39,395 bases of DNA from a virus: IMG/VR virus record IMGVR_UViG_3300032053_000195, positions 1 through 39,395 of that record; one strand, written 5' to 3'. Positions 14,110-37,449 of this stretch are shown here, in pieces; position 1 is the stretch's first letter; each line of letters begins with the position of its first letter. Both the position numbers and the translations under genes were made by a program. The notes below the pieces were generated by a model. The model saw only the letters and a program-made list of their open reading frames with translations, made no database searches and was not told the DNA's origin.

Positions 14110-14508
14110 ATGAGCTTGCCAACCGGCGACTTTTTAACCCGGATCATCCGGGATCCGGATACGGAGGAAAAGATCACGGTCAAATACCGGAGGCCTTTTA
14201 CAAGAGAGCGTCTCCGCTATGCTCTTGCCTTATGGGATCCGGAGAAAAAAACGTATCGGCCCGACGAAGAGGTGGACCAGGTGCGGATCGAATGGGGTCA
14301 GAAGATCATCCAGGGAATTGAAATTACATCTGCGAAACAAAATTTGATTTCATCCGATCCGGCCTCCAAATCTTACCGGAAGGATTGGAAACAGTGGCTC
14401 GTCGAGAAATCGCCTCAGATTCTCGAAACGCTGGCCTTTATGGCTTTTCAGGGGATCGATCTGAACAGGGAGATCGGGGAGGGAGAAGCCCCGGAAAAAA
14501 AATCTTAG
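14110..14508 (+). CDS. Tail assembly chaperone G
   Basis: The protein has 132 residues, mainly helical and charged (RRPFTRERLRYALALWDPEK; SPQILETLAFMAFQGIDLNR). It occupies the place of lambda gpG, between the tube gene and the tape measure gene, and ends in Glu-Lys-Lys-Ser directly after a slippery A8 run. TCGGAGG precedes the ATG. Chaperones of this kind coat the tape measure before tube polymerisation. The sequence is not obviously similar to gpG, but the frameshift arrangement identifies the role. Confidence 0.8.
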   Translation: MSLPTGDFLTRIIRDPDTEEKITVKYRRPFTRERLRYALALWDPEKKTYRPDEEVDQVRIEWGQKIIQGIEITSAKQNLISSDPASKSYRKDWKQWLVEKSPQILETLAFMAFQGIDLNREIGEGEAPEKKS

Positions 14509-14786
14509 CAGACATTGAGGTAATTTACGGCTCCAATGTCTGCACGCCCGAAAAAGAAGAAAGCTGTAGGAAGCAAGACACAACGGAGGCGATTCATCAA
14601 TGGGCCTGTTCCGTCTGCAACAAAAAGAAGCGGGAGCAAATTCATCCCTACACCTATCACCTGCTTTGGCTTCGGAAACTGATCAAAGCAGGTATTCGTT
14701 TTTCTCCGGACGATCTTCCCTGTGACACCTGGGAAGACCTGGGAATGGTCAACGAGATGATCGACATTAAGACGAGGATTTTTTAA
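14110..14786 (+). CDS. GT fusion chaperone by -1 frameshift
   Basis: A second reading frame open from 14385 to 14786 lies in the -1 frame relative to G and lacks a convincing start of its own. Ribosomes slipping back one base on the run of eight A (14495-14502) would avoid the TAG at 14506 and read on from ATC at 14502 as ILADIEVIYGSNVCTPEKEE, adding 94 residues and giving a product of about 225 residues. The T part contains CSVCNKKK and ends in DTWEDLGMVNEMIDIKTRIF. Lambda and many siphoviruses make GT in this way. Its stop overlaps the tape measure start (TAATG). Confidence 0.82.
14495..14502 (+). promoter_or_regulatory. Slippery site for -1 ribosomal frameshift (A8)
   Basis: The zero frame reads GAA AAA AAA TCT TAG. 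The stretch A AAA AAA allows both tRNAs to re-pair after a -1 slip, and the new frame stays open for 94 codons. This is the classic site type for G/GT genes. Confidence 0.82.
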
Positions 14787-25060: not shown

Positions 25061-25504
25061 TCAAGCCCCGGCGGGTAGGTTATACAAAGGTTTTACAAAA
25101 TTCATTCCCATATAGATATCGGGAGCATCGAATAAACCCTGTTTTCCTCTGATCCAGGGTGGTTTTTCAAATTTTCGGACATTGTCAATCTTCCAAGCGT
25201 ATCGCCCCGAGCTGAAATCTCCCACCTTTTTCTCAATGGCATCTATCGCGTCGTGGATATAATCGGTTGTAAAGATTGCAGCCAGATCCACGATAGCAAT
25301 GGCTCTACCATAATGCAGATCATCGATTGTCAATTGAAAGGAATGGAGCAAAGAAGCTATTTCGATGAAGGGCAATTTCTTTTTAGCCGCACAGATCAAA
25401 AGCGGTCCCCGGTAAAAGGTTTTCCAGGATCGAGTCTCATATCGTTTCTTCCCGAGGGCGATCAATGTTGCCCAAGGTTCCCAGAGGCTAATTGCCTTGA
25501 TCAT
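25061..25504 (-). CDS. ASCH-domain protein
   Basis: The protein has 147 residues and starts with the signature of the ASCH (ASC-1 homology) domain, ISLWEPWATLIALGKKRYET near residue 4, followed by YRGPLLICAAKK and a later RYAWKIDNVRKFE. ASCH proteins are small beta-barrel RNA-binding or nucleic-acid-modifying proteins; some cleave RNA or act on modified nucleosides. It is the last gene of the leftward operon, with its start overlapping the integrase stop by four bases (ATGA), so the two are translated together. Its 3' end abuts the attP core. Confidence 0.9.
   Translation of the reverse strand: MIKAISLWEPWATLIALGKKRYETRSWKTFYRGPLLICAAKKKLPFIEIASLLHSFQLTIDDLHYGRAIAIVDLAAIFTTDYIHDAIDAIEKKVGDFSSGRYAWKIDNVRKFEKPPWIRGKQGLFDAPDIYMGMNFVKPLYNLPAGA
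25084..25100. repeat. Possible integrase arm site, right
   Basis: ACAAAGGTTTTACAAAA, the partner of the site at 24971-24987, lies within the last codons of the ASCH gene on the other side of the tRNA-like core. Confidence 0.4.
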
Positions 25505-26667
25505 TTCCCCCTCACGATCTGGATGACCTTATCCTCGGTCTGATCGGAATAATGTCTCCTGATGACCTCCGGACTATTTCCGAGAATCTGAGCCGCATCC
25601 TGGATGAGCATCGCTTTCTTTAGCCAACGCGAAGTTGCACTCGAGCGGAGATCCCGGAGCGTCATCGGCCGGGTGCCATATTTCTGATGAGCTTCTTTCA
25701 TGGCTTTGCGCCATCTACCCTCTCGCATATGCCGTGTGTAAGGATAGCCATTGACGTGAAATACAAAAAGAGAGATAGGTAGGATAACCGGCGACAATGC
25801 TCCTGCTGATACCGCGGCCTGTTGTTTCGCCGGGGAGCCACTATCCCTCAGGTAATCTTCGATCTCCGGAATAATTGGAAGACTTCTTTCCTTGTTCGTT
25901 TTTGTTCTTGGTTTTATCTTCCCGTCCACGTAGACGGTGGAGATGGTGATCTCCCGGCTTTCCCAATTAACGGCTGATCGTAGGAGCCCGCTGGCTTCTT
26001 CAGGTCTCACGCCGTAATATCGAATGAAGAGGAAATATCCGAGATCGTCCGATTTGATGAATTCAAAGACCTGGTTAATTTCCTGGTCCGTGAATTTTTT
26101 AGGGCGAGATTGTTGATATTTGATCGCCGGAAATTCGGGGAAGAGGTTGATCGAACGTCTGAAATGATTCAAAAAGCCGTGGAGGGTCATTACAATATTT
26201 TTGATTGTCTTCCCTTTTAGCTTTTTCTTTTCGAGCCACCGGATGAGTCCCTGGATCTGGAGATCATCAATAGTGCGAAAGTCCTGATTCGAAAAAAACG
26301 GCATGAAATATTTTTTCCAGATCCATTCTTTCATTTTATGCCAGGATGAATCATTCTGCTTCCGGTCGAGGTAAAGCTCAAAGGCCTCGTCAAATTTATG
26401 GGGAATCTTATCTTTGAACTTTGAGGGATCGTACCGGTTCTTCGCCGGATCAGGATCATAGAGGGCATTCAGGTGCTCGAGGAAGGCCCAGGCATAAAAC
26501 TCTGCCTTGAGCGGGCGGCCATATTCATCCTTGCTAAACCATTTCCCTCTGAATTGGACCTGGAATCCGTTCTTGCGACGATAAACACCTCCTCTCATCT
26601 TCGCCATCTCCTCCTCGGGAATGACGAAAACCTTATCATGACGCGTCGAGGGAGTCAAGATTTTCAT
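25501..26667 (-). CDS. int: Tyrosine recombinase (phage integrase)
   Basis: The protein has 388 residues. The C-terminal catalytic domain shows the first arginine in YYGVRPEEASGLL (about residue 223), the beta-hairpin lysine in RTKTNKERSLPII, the second arginine box MTLRDLRSSATSRW, and the tyrosine in GNSPEVIRRHYSD near the C terminus. The usual histidine of HxxR is Arg here and that of LGHS is Asn. A core-binding SAM-like helical domain precedes it (HKFDEAFELYLDRKQNDSSW; LIRWLEKKKLKGKTIKNIVM). It joins attP to the bacterial tRNA gene. It lies next to its probable attP and is coupled to the ASCH gene. Confidence 0.95.
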   Translation of the reverse strand: MKILTPSTRHDKVFVIPEEEMAKMRGGVYRRKNGFQVQFRGKWFSKDEYGRPLKAEFYAWAFLEHLNALYDPDPAKNRYDPSKFKDKIPHKFDEAFELYLDRKQNDSSWHKMKEWIWKKYFMPFFSNQDFRTIDDLQIQGLIRWLEKKKLKGKTIKNIVMTLHGFLNHFRRSINLFPEFPAIKYQQSRPKKFTDQEINQVFEFIKSDDLGYFLFIRYYGVRPEEASGLLRSAVNWESREITISTVYVDGKIKPRTKTNKERSLPIIPEIEDYLRDSGSPAKQQAAVSAGALSPVILPISLFVFHVNGYPYTRHMREGRWRKAMKEAHQKYGTRPMTLRDLRSSATSRWLKKAMLIQDAAQILGNSPEVIRRHYSDQTEDKVIQIVRGK

Positions 26668-28248: not shown

Positions 28249-28462
28249 CGGTTTCCTGATCGCGAAGGTAATGGGAACATTCCACTTCTTTACAGGTATG
28301 CGGGTAATGGCATTCCAGCATATGGCCATAGGGACAAATCATACAGGTCAAAGGGTTGAGACCTCCGAGTTTGCACTCCCCCCTTTCAATGGTGAGGATC
28401 CCCGTCGGGAAACGGGAAGTCTTTTCCATCTTCTCAAGATTTTTTCTTGACTCCGGATCCAT
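28241..28462 (-). CDS. Cys-rich small protein
   Basis: The protein has 73 residues with seven Cys in the C-terminal half: GECKLGGLNPLTCMICPYGH, then LECHYPHTCKEVECSHYL. The spacing suggests one or two metal sites or an iron-sulfur cluster. Its start overlaps the ParB gene's 3' end by 29 bases and its stop overlaps the next start by a few bases. A Shine-Dalgarno (AAGGAG) lies about 13 bases before the ATG. Similar Cys-rich proteins are frequent in the early regions of phages; function is unknown. Confidence 0.7.
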   Translation of the reverse strand: MDPESRKNLEKMEKTSRFPTGILTIERGECKLGGLNPLTCMICPYGHMLECHYPHTCKEVECSHYLRDQETDV

Positions 28463-30113
28463 GTTCGTGGCTTTTCTCCTTTTTTGCAGACGTCTGCATT
28501 TTTGTCTTTTTCGTTTTTTGTTTTTTAGAAATCTTGGCTTTTTCCTCTAAATCCTTATGAAGTCGCCTGGCTGCCTTGACAGCCGCGTCCGGATCAAATA
28601 GTTTCTTTCCAGTTTTCCCTTTCTTTTCGGCCTTTGCCTTGATCATTTCTGCCTCAATCTTCTTCGGATCCACCTTATAATGCTCGGCCATAACCAAAAG
28701 AGAATCTTTCTTTTTCTTATCCATCCAGTGCCGAACTTCAATGTTTCGGATGAGGGCCATCTCCATGAGGAGCCTACCAAGCGCTGTCATCCCGCAATTT
28801 CCGATATAAATATTGATCGGAGTTTTCATATCAACACCATACTGAATCTTGAGCGGTTTTAGATCATGTCTCATTAGAATTTTTTTCTGATATTCAGTCC
28901 AGAGTTCGTCAAAGAGTTGCTCGGCAATAAAGGCTAAATCCTCTTTTGAAAGTTCTCCCGGGATGGCTTTTATTATTTCATCGATAATTTTCACTCGGAC
29001 CGTTTGTTCTCGTTTTGTCTTTTCGTTTGCAGCTTTCTGCTTGGCTCTCCATCTGTCTCCCTCGGGAGAGGAATATTGGGGATGATGGATTTTACAGTTT
29101 AGATCCGTACAGATCATAAGGATCTTCCCTTTGTTTTGGCCTTCCGTGATAATCCCTTCACGCGCAGATCCACAACTCCTCTTTTTCTTATCCGTGATTT
29201 CCTGATAAAGATTTGCGGGGATCGGTTTGTCGTCGGGTATCTTCTTCGCCCGATAGTCGAAATCTCCGGAAAGTTTCAATGGCGGGACATCGGTGTCCTG
29301 GGATTTCGTCTCGACCCAGCGATGAATGAATGCATCCACCTTGGCATGGAAACATTTCGGATCCGTACAGGTATCCTTTTTCTTGATATCCGGGAAGAGC
29401 GTGGGTTGAAAACCGGTCCGTTTAGGGCAAGTGGTACAGGATCCGGCCTCGGGTATCAGATCCGGATCTTTTTTGGAAAAACTTGCCGAATTGAGATCGA
29501 GATGAATTTGCCTTTCAATGTGATCGGCCAATTCACGGACTGACATCATCTCATTATCCCAGTCCGATCCTTCGAGGCATTCGTTCAAGGTAGTGGTTTG
29601 ATCCTGCGATTGCAGCCGCGCGATAAGGATCGCATGCCCCGCCGTAATCTTCTCCTCGAGGAAGGCCCTTTGAGCTTCAGGGATGAGATCCGCCAGCTTG
29701 AGCCGTTGATAGACATACGATTCGCTTTTTCCCACCTTGGCCGCGATCGTGGCAACATCATATCCGCCCCGTTTCATCAGATCCCGGAATCCGGAGGCCT
29801 CCTCCATCGGATGTACGTCCTCGCGCTGGAGATTCTCGATGGTGATGATCTCCAGGAATTCGACATCGTTTAACTTGCGGATGATGACGGGCACTTCTTT
29901 TAAACCCGCGGTCAGGGCCGCGCGGTAACGCCGAGTTCCTGCGGCGATCTCATAAAACCCATCTTGTGTTCGGACCAGAAGTGGTGTCAGGATTCCTTTT
30001 CCCCGGATGCTCTCGGTCAGTTCTTTCATCTTCACTTCATCATAACGTTTCCGGGGATTGAGTTTTGATTCCTTGACCTGATCGATCGGGATGAATTGGA
30101 ACGTAATATCCAT
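28434..30113 (-). CDS. parB: ParB-like protein
   Basis: The protein has 559 residues from the ATG at 30113, which follows AGGAGG; another start ten codons earlier lacks this. Residues 1-100 form a ParB/Srx N-domain: QVKESKLNPRKRYDEVKMKE, GFYEIAAGTRRYRAALTAGL and IENLQREDVHPMEEASGF, the last being the conserved ENLQRE box that binds CTP in true ParB. An HTH follows (VATIAAKVGKSESYVYQRLK), then a Cys-containing segment CTTCPKRTG...CTDPKCF at about 240-275. The C-terminal 120 residues are Lys-rich. No parA and no obvious parS array is present. It may regulate transcription or DNA transactions instead of partition. Confidence 0.9.
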   Translation of the reverse strand: MDITFQFIPIDQVKESKLNPRKRYDEVKMKELTESIRGKGILTPLLVRTQDGFYEIAAGTRRYRAALTAGLKEVPVIIRKLNDVEFLEIITIENLQREDVHPMEEASGFRDLMKRGGYDVATIAAKVGKSESYVYQRLKLADLIPEAQRAFLEEKITAGHAILIARLQSQDQTTTLNECLEGSDWDNEMMSVRELADHIERQIHLDLNSASFSKKDPDLIPEAGSCTTCPKRTGFQPTLFPDIKKKDTCTDPKCFHAKVDAFIHRWVETKSQDTDVPPLKLSGDFDYRAKKIPDDKPIPANLYQEITDKKKRSCGSAREGIITEGQNKGKILMICTDLNCKIHHPQYSSPEGDRWRAKQKAANEKTKREQTVRVKIIDEIIKAIPGELSKEDLAFIAEQLFDELWTEYQKKILMRHDLKPLKIQYGVDMKTPINIYIGNCGMTALGRLLMEMALIRNIEVRHWMDKKKKDSLLVMAEHYKVDPKKIEAEMIKAKAEKKGKTGKKLFDPDAAVKAARRLHKDLEEKAKISKKQKTKKTKMQTSAKKEKSHEHGSGVKKKS

Positions 30114-30209
30114 AAAATCCTCCTTTTTGTGGCCGATTGTCATAAAATCGCCTGTGCGTTTAAATTCTGCGTTCTAACGAGACTTGTCCAAAACCCATAC
30201 CTATGTATA

Positions 30210-32140: not shown

Positions 32141-32205
32141 TTGCCTTGCCAAGCCAAGCCGTGCCATGCCTCGCCTTGCCTCGCCAAGCCAAGCCTAGCC
32201 ATGCC
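32141..32205. repeat. NNGCC pentamer array A (13 units)
   Basis: There are thirteen consecutive five-base units of form NNGCC (TTGCC, TTGCC, AAGCC, AAGCC, GTGCC, ATGCC, TCGCC and so on) with strict five-base phase and free first two bases, mostly TT, AA, TC, AT. On the transcribed strand it reads GGCNN. It lies between two small genes just ahead of the ribosome site of the zinc-ribbon gene. Related arrays lie at 32545-32604 and 33336-33405. Confidence 0.92.
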
Positions 32206-32544: not shown

Positions 32545-32604
32545 ATGCCTTGCCACGCCTCGCCTCGCCTCGCCTCGCCAAGCCAAGCCTAGCCTAGCCC
32601 TGCC
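32545..32604. repeat. NNGCC pentamer array B (12 units)
   Basis: Twelve consecutive NNGCC units run from ATGCC at 32545 to CTGCC at 32600, with four TCGCC in a row in the centre. Like array A it is followed on the right by CTGAA. It lies between the 87-residue gene and the 191-residue gene. An imperfect inverted repeat (GGTCAACCGAAG...TCCGACTGACC, about 32492-32520) is beside it. Confidence 0.92.
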
Positions 32605-33335: not shown

Positions 33336-33405
33336 CCGCCTTGCCTCGCCATGCCTTGCCATGCCAAGCCCGGCCATGCCCCGCCCCGCCAAGCCTTGCC
33401 ATGCC
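33336..33405. repeat. NNGCC pentamer array C (14 units)
   Basis: Fourteen consecutive NNGCC units run from CCGCC at 33336 to ATGCC at 33401. This array has more C-starting units than A and B. The 143 bases to its left (33193-33335), up to the next gene, hold a short inverted repeat CCCCT-N8-AGGGG (about 33258-33276) and no gene I can support. Confidence 0.92.
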
Positions 33406-34263: not shown

Positions 34264-34328
34264 CGCCTTGAGTTCCCACATCCGCCATCTATCGTGTCCA
34301 ATATGATCTCTGGCTCTTGCATTTTCAT
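34260..34328 (-). CDS. 22-residue coupled peptide
   Basis: The frame reads MKMQEPEIILDTIDGGCGNS followed by two Arg and a stop. Its ATG overlaps the pentapeptide gene's stop (ATGA) and its own stop overlaps the next ATG (ATGA), so a ribosome could pass through all three genes. Whether the peptide itself has a function or merely links translation is unknown. It is too short for composition to help. Confidence 0.45.
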   Translation of the reverse strand: MKMQEPEIILDTIDGGCGNSRR

Positions 34329-35110
34329 TTCTTCTCGGTATTTGCGTTGTCCTCCTTTTTGAGACCGATTTCTTTCAGATCTTTCTCGCCCACGATGGTG
34401 CATCGGAAAACTCTGAATTTGCCATCTGTTGCAATTGGAATAGCGGCAATATCTTTGGCCGTGAATTGCGCGATGAGAATGCGATATCCGGGTACCCAGT
34501 TTTGCATACACCAATTCAGGCTGGCCAAATTGATTCCGGGAGCGCATTGAAGTTGATCGTTAGTATTCGCTTCTGGTACTTCATGGGTTTCTCCTATCTC
34601 ATATTTGATCCCGGCATTGAATGGATCCTCATTATTTGCGTTTATAAGTTTGTAACATCTGATCTTGCCCGGTTGATCTAAAAGAAATAACAATGGCGTG
34701 ACCAAATATTTATTAATTCTTTTCGCCCCAGAGAGATCCGCCCCAGAAAGATTCGCCCCAGAGAGATCCGCCCCAGAGAGATCCGCCCCAGAGAGATCCG
34801 CCCCAGAGAGATCCGCCCCAGAGAGATCCGCCCCAGAGAGATCCGCCCCAGAGAGATCCGCCCCAGAGAGATCCGCCCCAGAGAGATTCGCCGCAGAGAG
34901 ATTCGCCCCAGAGAGATCCGCCCCAGAGAGATACGCCCCAGAGAGATCCGCCCCAGAGAGATCCGCCCCAGAGAGATCCGCCCCAGAGAGATACGCCCCA
35001 CAGAGATACGCCCCAGAGAGATACGCCTTGTTTTTGATGGCCAAATCCCTCGAACCTTCTTCACCTTCGCAAATTAATTGATTTGTAAGTTTGTTTTTAA
35101 TTTGGTTCAT
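34325..35110 (-). CDS. Pentapeptide-repeat protein
   Basis: The protein has 261 residues from the ATG at 35110, preceded by AAAGGAGGAGAA. Residues 1-28 are a charged leader. Residues 29-128 are 20 consecutive pentapeptides of type A(D/Y/N)LSG, which fold as a square right-handed beta helix. Residues 129-261 are a separate globular-looking region (TPLLFLLDQPGKIRCYKLIN; LNWCMQNWVPGYRILIAQFT; FRVFRCTIVGEKDLKE). Some pentapeptide-repeat proteins mimic DNA and inhibit gyrase; others are adaptors. A start 12 codons earlier lacks a ribosome site. It sits between the pilin-like gene and small membrane genes. Confidence 0.9.
   Translation of the reverse strand: MNQIKNKLTNQLICEGEEGSRDLAIKNKAYLSGAYLCGAYLSGADLSGADLSGADLSGAYLSGADLSGANLSAANLSGADLSGADLSGADLSGADLSGADLSGADLSGADLSGADLSGANLSGADLSGAKRINKYLVTPLLFLLDQPGKIRCYKLINANNEDPFNAGIKYEIGETHEVPEANTNDQLQCAPGINLASLNWCMQNWVPGYRILIAQFTAKDIAAIPIATDGKFRVFRCTIVGEKDLKEIGLKKEDNANTEKK
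34727..35026. repeat. Twenty tandem 15-bp repeats (pentapeptide coding)
   Basis: The unit GAGAGATCCGCCCCA is repeated in exact 15-base phase, with the variants TTC/TAC for TCC and a few single changes; about eight to ten central units are identical. Such near-identity indicates recent expansion, and copy number is likely variable. Both strands are open for long stretches because of the repeat, but only the minus strand has a ribosome site and a continuing domain. Confidence 0.93.
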
Positions 35111-35127: not shown

Positions 35128-35460
35128 TTATGGAATTGACGGCCATTGATTAAGAAAACTCTCTAACCAACTCTTTACGACCGGTCCGACAGTTTGGATT
35201 CCGAAGATAGCCACGGCCGCAATAACGGCGACCAAAATTGCATATTCGACAGACGAGGCCCCCTTATCTTTACCGTTATCGCTAGGAACGATGAATAACG
35301 CCCTGGCGTCCTTAACCAAACCGCCAAAGATCAGTCTTGCCCATCGGAACGCGGAGGTGACCAGGGGGATTCCTCTCGATTGCTTTCTTCTCTCGGGGAG
35401 GGCGCCGAGGAAGGACACCGTTCCCCTGACATAATTTTTAAGATAGACTTTATAGAGCAT
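35128..35460 (-). CDS. Flp-type (type IVb) pilin-like protein
   Basis: The protein has 110 residues. Near residue 67 it has DKGASSVEYAILVAVIAAVA, a near-perfect Flp prepilin core: cleavage Gly, four residues, Glu-Tyr, then a hydrophobic helix. A short C-terminal part follows (VVKSWLESFLNQWPSIP). Known Flp pilins have leaders of about 10-25 residues; this one has 67, including a basic, partly amphipathic stretch (RGTVSFLGALPERRKQSRG). Real Flp pilins build adhesive pili through Tad machinery. No Tad genes are in the window, so it would need host machinery or act otherwise, for example by poisoning host pili to block other phages. It follows the secreted-protein gene. Confidence 0.8.
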   Translation of the reverse strand: MLYKVYLKNYVRGTVSFLGALPERRKQSRGIPLVTSAFRWARLIFGGLVKDARALFIVPSDNGKDKGASSVEYAILVAVIAAVAIFGIQTVGPVVKSWLESFLNQWPSIP

Positions 35461-35504
35461 GGTGAACCTTCTTTAAAAATGCCGAGCGGTTCGGCGGTTA
35501 GAGG

Positions 35505-36269
35505 TTATTTGATTTCGTAATATTCAACCGTATGCGGAGGGTCTGCAACCGAGCTGTTATAGCCCATCGTAGAACCACCGCCCGCACCGCCACCGTATAC
35601 GCTGGATCCACCATTCAAGGCTGATCCCACCACATTGACGCTGCTGCCGATACCAGAACCCTTTATCTTTGTTCTCTGAAAGACTCGGTAACGGATCTTG
35701 GAAGGGTCTACTTTGTATTTGCCGTTTGCCAATACAATCTTCTCATATTTTTCCAGAACGAACTCGGTCAGGTCTTCAAGACAGATCCGGTTCCATATCC
35801 ATCCATTGTAGGATTCAAGTACCCGTTTGACCTTTTCACCCTTGGCCAGACCTTTCAAAAACTCGAATTCTGGCATATTGGCAGTCCAATCAACAAGCCC
35901 TCCGGTGATGAGGGGATACACATTTGTAGGAAGTGTTGGCACGCCCAAAAGTTCTCTCGGGACATTGACCGTTACTTCCTGGACAGGCGCCACGAATCCA
36001 AACTGGGATTGCCCTTGCCCTTGTCCTTGCCGCTGCCCTTGAATATTTGTGTTGGTTGGATTAAAATTGTTTCGAAATTCAGGGGCGTTCACATTCACGT
36101 TCGTATTGATATCCGTGTTTGCGACGCTCTGCGTTTGGCCCTGTTGCAGGTTCGCTCCGGTGACAGGGCTGAACGCTCCTCCTGTACTTGGTCCATCGAT
36201 CGTGACCTGGGCCAGGGCCATGGTGGCCCATCCCAAAATCAGCATCATTGCTAAAACTACCTTTCGCAT
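35505..36269 (-). CDS. Secreted Gln/Gly-rich protein
   Basis: The protein has 254 residues. Residues 1-20 are a clear Sec signal peptide (MRKVVLAMMLILGWATMALA, cleavage after ALA). Residues 21-90 are low complexity, Asn/Gln/Thr-rich with a run QGQRQGQGQGQSQ. A folded-looking middle follows (VPRELLGVPTLPTNVYPLIT; EFEFLKGLAKGEKVKRVLES; ITDLT-like regions) and a C-terminal Gly-rich tail. The GA-rich ribosome region (AAAGGAGAAAACG) precedes the ATG. It lies just before the pilin-like gene; export of both suggests a surface-acting pair. Family and function are unknown. Confidence 0.75.
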   Translation of the reverse strand: MRKVVLAMMLILGWATMALAQVTIDGPSTGGAFSPVTGANLQQGQTQSVANTDINTNVNVNAPEFRNNFNPTNTNIQGQRQGQGQGQSQFGFVAPVQEVTVNVPRELLGVPTLPTNVYPLITGGLVDWTANMPEFEFLKGLAKGEKVKRVLESYNGWIWNRICLEDLTEFVLEKYEKIVLANGKYKVDPSKIRYRVFQRTKIKGSGIGSSVNVVGSALNGGSSVYGGGAGGGSTMGYNSSVADPPHTVEYYEIK

Positions 36270-36315
36270 TCGTTTTCTCCTTTCGTTTCGTTTTTGCCTT
36301 ACCGCTCGGCTTTCG

Positions 36316-36465
36316 TTAAGACTCGTCGAGAATCATTGCGAGGATCCATTTCTGGATCTCGATCTCCTTGTCAGAATCGATCCGTTTGCATTCCTCGGGG
36401 AGGTTTCCGAAGGCTTCGTCTTTCTCGGTGAAAAATTCCCTTACCTGCCTAACAAGATTTTCCAT
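36316..36465 (-). CDS. Small acidic protein, unknown
   Basis: This 49-residue protein (MENLVRQVREFFTEKDEAFG; KEIEIQKWILAMILDES) is mainly helical and acidic. AAGGAGGTACCC gives a very strong ribosome site, a good argument for a real gene. It overlaps the preceding Cys-rich gene by 17 bases. No family is recognised; such small acidic early proteins often bind a host protein. Confidence 0.65.
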   Translation of the reverse strand: MENLVRQVREFFTEKDEAFGNLPEECKRIDSDKEIEIQKWILAMILDES

Positions 36466-36857: not shown

Positions 36858-36886
36858 ATATACCAAATTCTGGTATACTTTGTCAA
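36858..36886 (-). promoter_or_regulatory. Leftward early promoter PL with operator O1
   Basis: On the minus strand TTGACA (36886-36881) is followed by exactly 17 bases and GTATAT (36863-36858), a good sigma-70 promoter that starts transcription near 36851. Upstream lies an A/T-rich stretch like an UP element. The palindrome TATACCA-N5-TGGTATA (36859-36877) covers the spacer and -10 box, so a bound repressor would shut the promoter. The same combination recurs at PR. Confidence 0.85.
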
Positions 36887-36938: not shown

Positions 36939-37199
36939 TTATTCGGTTTCTGAGGTGGGACCTGACTTTCCCTTAATAAGCCAGTCAAGACTAAGCCTGA
37001 ATTCTTCGCTGAACATAACCAAAAAACCAGTGTTTATGTGACCTTTTTTGGCCCAATTATGCAAAGTATTCGGAGAAAGACCTTTTAAAACGGCATAGTG
37101 ATTCATGGTTTTGTAGGGAGATTTTTTAATGGTTTCTCTCACCCTCGTGGAGATATCTTTTTTTTGTTTCGGTGTTAAGTCAAATTTTTTGCTTGACAT
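36939..37199 (-). CDS. CI-type repressor, short form
   Basis: The protein has 86 residues from the ATG at 37199, directly beside O2. Residues 30-75 (TMNHYAVLKGLSPNTLHNWA; NTGFLVMFSEEFRLSLDWLI) look like the DNA-binding domain of the phage CI repressor family, in which the closing SLDWLL motif is typical. There is no C-terminal peptidase/dimer domain, so classic RecA-triggered self-cleavage seems impossible. It lies leftward between two operators, as cI lies between OL and OR in lambda. A longer reading to 37307 crosses the promoter and is rejected. No Shine-Dalgarno is visible. Confidence 0.8.
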   Translation of the reverse strand: MSSKKFDLTPKQKKDISTRVRETIKKSPYKTMNHYAVLKGLSPNTLHNWAKKGHINTGFLVMFSEEFRLSLDWLIKGKSGPTSETE

Positions 37200-37221
37200 G
37201 ATATACCAAAGTTTGGTATAT
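37193..37221 (+). promoter_or_regulatory. Rightward early promoter PR with operator O2
   Basis: TTGACA (37193-37198), 17 bases, GTATAT (37216-37221), the same elements as PL in mirror image. The palindrome TATACCA-N5-TGGTATA (37202-37220, extended by one base pair each side) sits in the spacer and -10 box. The predicted start near 37228 is only about three bases before the ATG of the Cro-like gene, so that mRNA is nearly leaderless. The ATG of the CI-type gene also lies within this promoter, reading the other way. Confidence 0.87.
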
Positions 37222-37230
37222 AGCCAGATT

Positions 37231-37449
37231 ATGAACCAAATCGTATTCGCAAAAATGCTGAATAAGAAGAAGATAAACCAGGCGCAATTGGCAAGAAAAT
37301 TGAACATGAGTCCTCAACGGATTTGTGATATTCGATCGGGTCGCCTTGATGGATGGAAATATCGATCCAGGATTTGCCGATACCTTGGAGTTCCGGAAGA
37401 GATCCTATTCCCCGAAGATAAAAAGACTCAAAAATCATGCCAGGTTTAA
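37231..37449 (+). CDS. Cro-like HTH regulator
   Basis: The protein has 72 residues: MNQIVFAKMLNKKKINQAQL, then ARKLNMSPQRICDIRSGRLD and YLGVPEEILFPE, an XRE-type helix-turn-helix with little else. It starts ten bases after the PR -10 box and has no Shine-Dalgarno, so it is probably translated from a near-leaderless mRNA. Divergent from the CI-type gene and first in the rightward operon, it fits Cro. An in-frame start at 37129 would read through the promoter and opposing gene and is rejected. Confidence 0.83.
   Translation: MNQIVFAKMLNKKKINQAQLARKLNMSPQRICDIRSGRLDGWKYRSRICRYLGVPEEILFPEDKKTQKSCQV

Follow-up and report, generated by a model that had tools for sequence, protein, structure and literature searches.

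The phage represented by IMG/VR record IMGVR_UViG_3300032053_000195 encodes a 110-aa protein that, on sequence comparison, is shown to be a chimera of a small soluble domain and a divergent Flp-type prepilin segment. This reading follows from the occurrence of the two halves apart in other genomes, together with the absence of any protein joining both among the sequences searched. The window analysed here is the whole record of 39,395 nt, and its exact 127-bp terminal repeat indicates a complete circular map. Judged from its gene content, the virus is a temperate tailed phage, since its genes include those for terminase, portal, protease, capsid and tail proteins, for an integrase, and for a divergent repressor/Cro-like pair. 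A sister phage, IMGVR_UViG_3300031885_000046 (genome G001, locus L005; 40.7 kb), is 96% identical in its capsid protein, 91% in its head protease, and about 90% in its portal. The chimeric gene and a neighbouring Gln/Gly-rich gene both lie on the minus strand between the repressor and the integrase, with a pentapeptide-repeat gene close behind, and the features of this region are as follows.

35128..35460, minus strand: chimeric gene of 110 aa, small domain plus Flp-type prepilin segment (ORF, Flp HMM, and codon usage)
35269..35460, minus strand: small domain, residues 1-64, found free-standing both in the sister phage and in a single bacterial order
35131..35259, minus strand: residues 68-110, predicted mature Flp-like pilin of 43 aa, following the Gly67/Ala68 bond, with Glu at +5 and Tyr at +6
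35470..35495, no strand: left arm (26 nt) of an inverted repeat that brackets the Gln/Gly gene; the arm doubles as a weak terminator-like stem
35505..36269, minus strand: Gln/Gly/Asn-rich, secreted-looking orphan protein of 254 aa, coding frame supported by codon usage
36296..36321, no strand: right arm (26 nt) of the inverted repeat bracketing the Gln/Gly gene
34325..35110, minus strand: pentapeptide-repeat protein directly downstream of the 110-aa gene, likely start ATG 35110 behind AAAGGAGGAG
25501..26667, minus strand: tyrosine integrase (PF00589)

Both ORFs stand as initially annotated, at 35128-35460 (110 aa) and 35505-36269 (254 aa) on the minus strand. Each is preceded by a plausible ribosome-binding site, and the codon-usage score peaks in the annotated frame for the 254-aa ORF and, separately, for each half of the 110-aa ORF. 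The Flp prepilin core recognized in the initial annotation is likewise borne out. Its motif, GASSVEYA at 35228-35262, is exact, and a search of the window with a degenerate DNA pattern for the core gave a single site, with none in 100 shuffles. A local Flp model trained on 19 Flp pilins of cellular and viral-contig origin scored the protein at 38.0 bits; shuffling the C-terminal half 5,000 times gave 10.1 at best, and this model reported no match at E<=10 among the 29,013 other ORFs of the fetched loci. The anticipated match to the Flp/Fap profile (PF04964, Pfam) was indeed found at residues 66-93 (E 2.1e-6), but its 27.8 bits fall 4.4 bits short of the curated cut-off of 32.2, and the protein is therefore termed Flp-like and not a Pfam member.

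Several further observations bear on this half. As in PF04964 pilins, Gly-1, Glu+5, and Tyr+6 are kept (G67-ASSVEY) and followed by a hydrophobic helix with a hydropathy of 2.39, and the Flp part is ~33-55% identical to known Flps. A PDB sequence search with the Flp part returned only two entries, both of them mature Tad pilins aligned from Ala68 with weak E values (0.22 and 0.31). AlphaFold produced a single helix at residues 70-105 (pLDDT about 82), and a Foldseek search with the pilin model gave nothing better than E 6, a lone helix being uninformative in such searches. By motif and profile, the C-terminal ~46 residues of the protein are truly Flp-like. The whole 110-aa pilin, used as a single-protein query, had no relatives in IMG/VR. 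Moreover, named phages yielded no tblastn match to either its Flp core or a generic one, a result without weight because the low-complexity filter probably masks such helices.

The leader differs from those of Flp pilins. At 67 residues it is, as the initial annotation counted, far longer than the short basic leaders of about 13-26 aa in PF04964 pilins, but residues 1-64 proved to be another domain in their own right, which stands alone in the sister phage and in a single bacterial order. For an internal start that would leave a leader of normal length, GTG15 and TTG48 are the only possible codons; TTG48 falls inside the conserved GGLVKD and has no good ribosome site, and it was rejected as the main start. 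In agreement with the original reading, no prepilin peptidase was found in the phage and no Tad gene among its scanned ORFs, and the pilin is therefore not encoded alongside TadA/B/C, a secretin, and TadV.

Residues 1-64 follow the pattern YKVxxKNY..G.LxERRK..RG..WAr..FG..VKD..x-F-VP. The sister-phage counterpart is a free 69-aa protein (L005:13014-13205) with 59% identity to residues 1-64, and it ends in ..IIPSDENKGGHHG and a stop; it has no Flp part, and an Flp gene is absent from that entire contig. A domain profile made from the two phages found homologues in 22 of 395 genomes sampled from the phylum to which a Syntrophus MAG belongs. These homologues are 60-110 aa long and share the pattern YKVF.KNY..KKGEL.G.L.ERRKDLRG.TQ..SGLKWAKL.FG..VKD...IFVVP.E; the cellular copies either stop there or run into a SHOCT-like tail, and never into Flp. 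Two cellular matches that seemed to enter the Flp half (query 2-88 and 2-89) were discarded, as their tails (WL.EKG..T.EEL) are SHOCT-like. Relatives of the small domain are 38-59% identical to residues 1-64, and a 14-member alignment conserves Y3, V5, G19, ERR, RG30, WA41, F45, D51, and P59, to all of which the 110-aa protein conforms. No Pfam or NCBIfam model matches the domain, and it has no solved relative. The best 19-residue mean hydropathy of the free domain is 1.05, too low to span a membrane, versus 2.39 for the Flp part.

The distribution of the small domain is narrow. In 12 of the 395 genomes, all 12 from one order, the whole 110-aa query was matched strongly (at E 2e-8 or better), and when that order was searched separately, 15 of its 17 genomes matched. 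The 60-aa YKVF..ERRKDLRG.. domain (loci L164-L175, L338 and L341, besides window 35269-35460) is multi-copy in some genomes and nearly absent outside its order in the phylum sample. Being nearly confined to one order among the sampled genomes, the domain serves as a pointer to the host lineage, and both phages are most plausibly assigned to hosts of this order, a guess drawn from domain distribution. A Tad locus, which the initial annotation presupposed in the host, is present in a genome of this candidate order (G317), where it runs flp-cpaB-secretin-tadE-tadG-tadZ-tadA-tadB-tadC and its products include RcpC/CpaB, a TadZ-like ATPase, a T2SSE protein (TadA), and two T2SSF proteins (TadB/C).

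The same genome searches matched the Flp half (residues 64-105) to ordinary short-leader Flp pilins at other places. At the junction, the small domain runs to ...DNGKDKG, and the cut separates this from ASSVEYAILVAVIAAVAIFGIQTVG...; directly ahead of the cut, KDKG is reminiscent of the ends of normal Flp leaders (K-D-E-S-G, D-E-E-G). The arrangement looks as if a flp gene minus its start had been joined to the domain gene with the cleavage site kept. Compared with the cellular Flp from one domain-bearing genome, the Flp half shows just 33% identity and is therefore no fresh copy of that protein. Among 47 related phage contigs, none has an Flp gene, and the domain occurs in the sister phage only. 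The fusion is also absent from 29 IMG/VR contigs bearing canonical Flp genes, contigs that were not counted as proof of phage pilins, as many may be host flanks. The fusion is thus known from one genome only.

As to when the gene might be expressed, an immunity-like region lies upstream.

36859..36886, minus strand: pL-like promoter, TTGACA-N18-TATA(TA), with an embedded 19-bp operator palindrome (consensus and symmetry)
36939..37199, minus strand: repressor-like gene of 86 aa between the two operator-promoters (phrog_3037 transcriptional repressor, E 1.8e-5)
37193..37220, plus strand: pR-like promoter with an identical operator (consensus and symmetry)
37237..37449, plus strand: divergent Cro-like HTH gene, start codon uncertain (phrog_3/1468 transcription regulation)

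In phage lambda, cI lies between pL and pR. The likeness here consists of a repressor-like gene flanked by two outward operator-promoters. The operator palindrome, TATACCANNNTTTGGTATA, is present in both promoters, nowhere else in the window, and in no shuffle, and the two divergent promoter-operator modules form a 40-nt mutual inverted repeat at 85%. The leftward module faces the pilin and Gln/Gly genes, and no convincing terminator was found between that promoter and either gene, counts being at chance level. Since a pL-like, operator-overlapped promoter lies upstream of both, the two genes are inferred to be expressed early, under repressor control, in a leftward operon, an argument drawn from consensus and sequence symmetry only.

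The 254-aa neighbour has, as first described, a signal peptide and a (QG)n segment: a Sec-type signal, judged by eye, ends between ..MALA and Q, and QGQRQGQGQGQSQ is contained in the protein. No relative was found in IMG/VR (by short-peptide scan), in plasmids, or in the three nearest phages, and matches to named phages were of E 3 or worse only. The single Gln/Gly match in the 395 genomes (E 0.002) was set aside as a low-complexity hit to an unrelated 533-aa frame, and the structure model (pLDDT 33) was unusable. The 10-nt core of the bracketing inverted repeat occurs twice in the window, both times at the arms, with 0.03 occurrences expected. Segment 35470-36321 is missing from the sister phage, where the gene that precedes the Gln/Gly position (..EIQKWIL.MIL.ES) directly abuts the domain gene. 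Given the bracketing repeat and this absence, the Gln/Gly gene is most likely an independent insertion in the form of a small cassette. The suggestion that it may form a functional pair with the pilin gene is not supported: the Flp part is absent from the 47 related contigs, the neighbour is absent from the three nearest, and it sits in an inverted-repeat segment of its own.

Other features of the phage map deserve mention. Within the pentapeptide-repeat gene, a 15-bp DNA unit is repeated 20 times at 34724-35027 with 95% DNA identity, and for this reason the gene has probably been recently expanded and is variable in length. The C-terminus of its product weakly matches RIIB families, and there is a Qnr-like Pfam match as well. 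A methyltransferase-domain protein (PF13578; 4377-5675) lies between the terminase and portal genes and is 82% identical in the sister phage, which also shares a 569-aa ParB-domain protein (ParB_N plus HTH_ParB; 28434-30143) of the leftward operon. Finally, a degenerate 5-bp repeat, (GGCNN)12-19, forms three minus-strand arrays at 33336-33405, 32545-32604, and 32141-32205 of the window, corresponding in position to arrays at L005:13460-13554, 14276-14350, and 14684-14758. These are interleaved with two conserved genes in both sister phages; no array arose in 200 shuffles, and at least 120 stretches of IMG/VR DNA contain 11 or more GGCNN units closed by a final GGC.

With respect to function, it is tentatively proposed that the host Tad pathway takes up the Flp part and that the assembly of pili is disturbed as a result, a reading that stands first among those considered here while remaining more doubtful than assured. 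The chimera would be made early from the repressor-controlled leftward operon, and its Flp helix would lodge in the inner membrane, leaving the small domain in the cytoplasm. A TadV/CpaA-type prepilin peptidase of the host would then cut, or try to cut, between Gly67 and Ala68, and host Flp would face competition for the peptidase and the Tad platform, either from the 43-aa pilin so released or from the uncut prepilin with its bulky head. Tad pili would be altered or would fail to form, and pilus-dependent rival phages would be shut out. Prepilins generally have a cytoplasmic leader of variable length and a peptidase site at the membrane-cytoplasm border (PMC10191384), and by this rule the small domain would be cytoplasmic and a host peptidase could cut after Gly67.

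Interference with Tad pili is consistent with a real Flp segment that can be aligned, at weak E values, from exactly Ala68 to mature Tad pilins, with a predicted mature length of 43 aa against 45 in Caulobacter (PMC11067988), and with the helix at 70-105. Likewise, the sister phage has the free domain without Flp, the 12 genomes with strong domain matches all fall in one order in which G317 carries a Tad locus, and the immunity region has two operator-promoters. Precedent for the principle is provided by the temperate-phage peptides Tip, Aqs1, and Zip, which shut down type IV pili (PMC11656802). On the other hand, a fusion in a single genome allows no selection test, the Flp match lies below the Pfam cut-off, and a 64-aa folded domain ahead of the cleavage site has no known parallel here; moreover, the host is drawn from domain distribution and the early promoter from consensus and symmetry only.

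A close rival, rather unlikely in itself, is that the Flp helix serves only to hold the small domain at the inner membrane, unprocessed and unrelated to Tad. The soluble domain is the conserved part common to the sister phage, and in its free form it has no helix hydrophobic enough for membrane spanning (1.05 versus 2.39 for the Flp part). Nevertheless, Gly-1, Glu+5, and Tyr+6 would be needless for anchoring, and all three are kept at only about 33-55% identity. It is less probable that the domain gene recombined by chance with a passing flp gene and gained a harmless tail of little function. The restriction to one genome, the absence from 47 related contigs, and the mosaic region with its adjoining inverted-repeat-bounded insertion would accord with such an accident, but the frame is open throughout, both halves suit the phage in their codon usage, and the Flp part is well diverged from the sampled cellular Flps and hence no fresh copy of those.

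Flp pilins are adhesins, and the initial annotation had raised the prospect of a surface trait, for instance adhesion or biofilm formation by a lysogen through a prophage-made pilin and the Gln/Gly protein. The secreted look of the latter and the record of prophage Flp pilins in Vibrio harveyi speak for it, but the position of both genes behind an operator-overlapped promoter, in the repressor's direction and like the lambda pL operon, makes this less likely; no prophage was found, nor any sign of the two genes travelling together, and such conversion is a poor candidate. That two molecules were joined at the fusion by metagenome assembly is very improbable indeed, given the closed circular map, the phage-homologous genes on both flanks, the in-frame join, and the fitting codon usage.

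Interference with the Tad pathway could take a more specific and decidedly speculative form, that of a Trojan prepilin in which an order-specific cytoplasmic domain is delivered early with an Flp segment, the head stalling the peptidase or platform, or the tail poisoning the fibre, so that pilus-dependent phages are barred. If true, this would be the first phage-encoded pilin-mimic inhibitor of Tad pili.

Compared with known systems, the chimera shares with Flp/Tad major pilins (PF04964; Caulobacter PilA) the Gly-1 cleavage motif, Glu+5, Tyr+6, and a single amphipathic helix. It differs in having a 64-aa independent domain in place of a ~14-aa leader (14 aa in the Caulobacter Tad pilin, whose mature length is 45 aa; PMC11067988), in lying outside any Tad locus, and in scoring below the Pfam curated value. 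The initial impression that no phage system of this kind had been described holds in part. Phage-borne Flp pilins are already on record, with genes listed in the V. harveyi prophages phi345 and phiGANI1709 (PMC12482185) and tabulated in the phiLM21-like prophages of Sinorhizobium meliloti (PMC12429752), whereas no report of a phage Flp segment fused to another domain was found in the open PubMed Central literature; compared by description only, those prophage pilins are likewise Flp-type, with no domain fusion described. Tip, Aqs1, and Zip resemble the chimera in proposed role only, being small proteins of temperate phages for which an action on pili has been proposed or shown. Inhibitors of the Tip/Aqs1 type are marked by a PilB-binding core and by binding to the pilus extension ATPase. 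Tip and Aqs1 bind the PilB motor and Zip binds the PilZ-PilB complex, all targeting T4a pili (PMC11656802), and they are thus motor binders and neither pilin mimics nor directed at Tad. Should the chimera prove to be processed by, or to block, the Tad peptidase or platform, it would represent a new phage control of pili, by mimicking the subunit instead of binding the motor, and a tool for probing Tad assembly.
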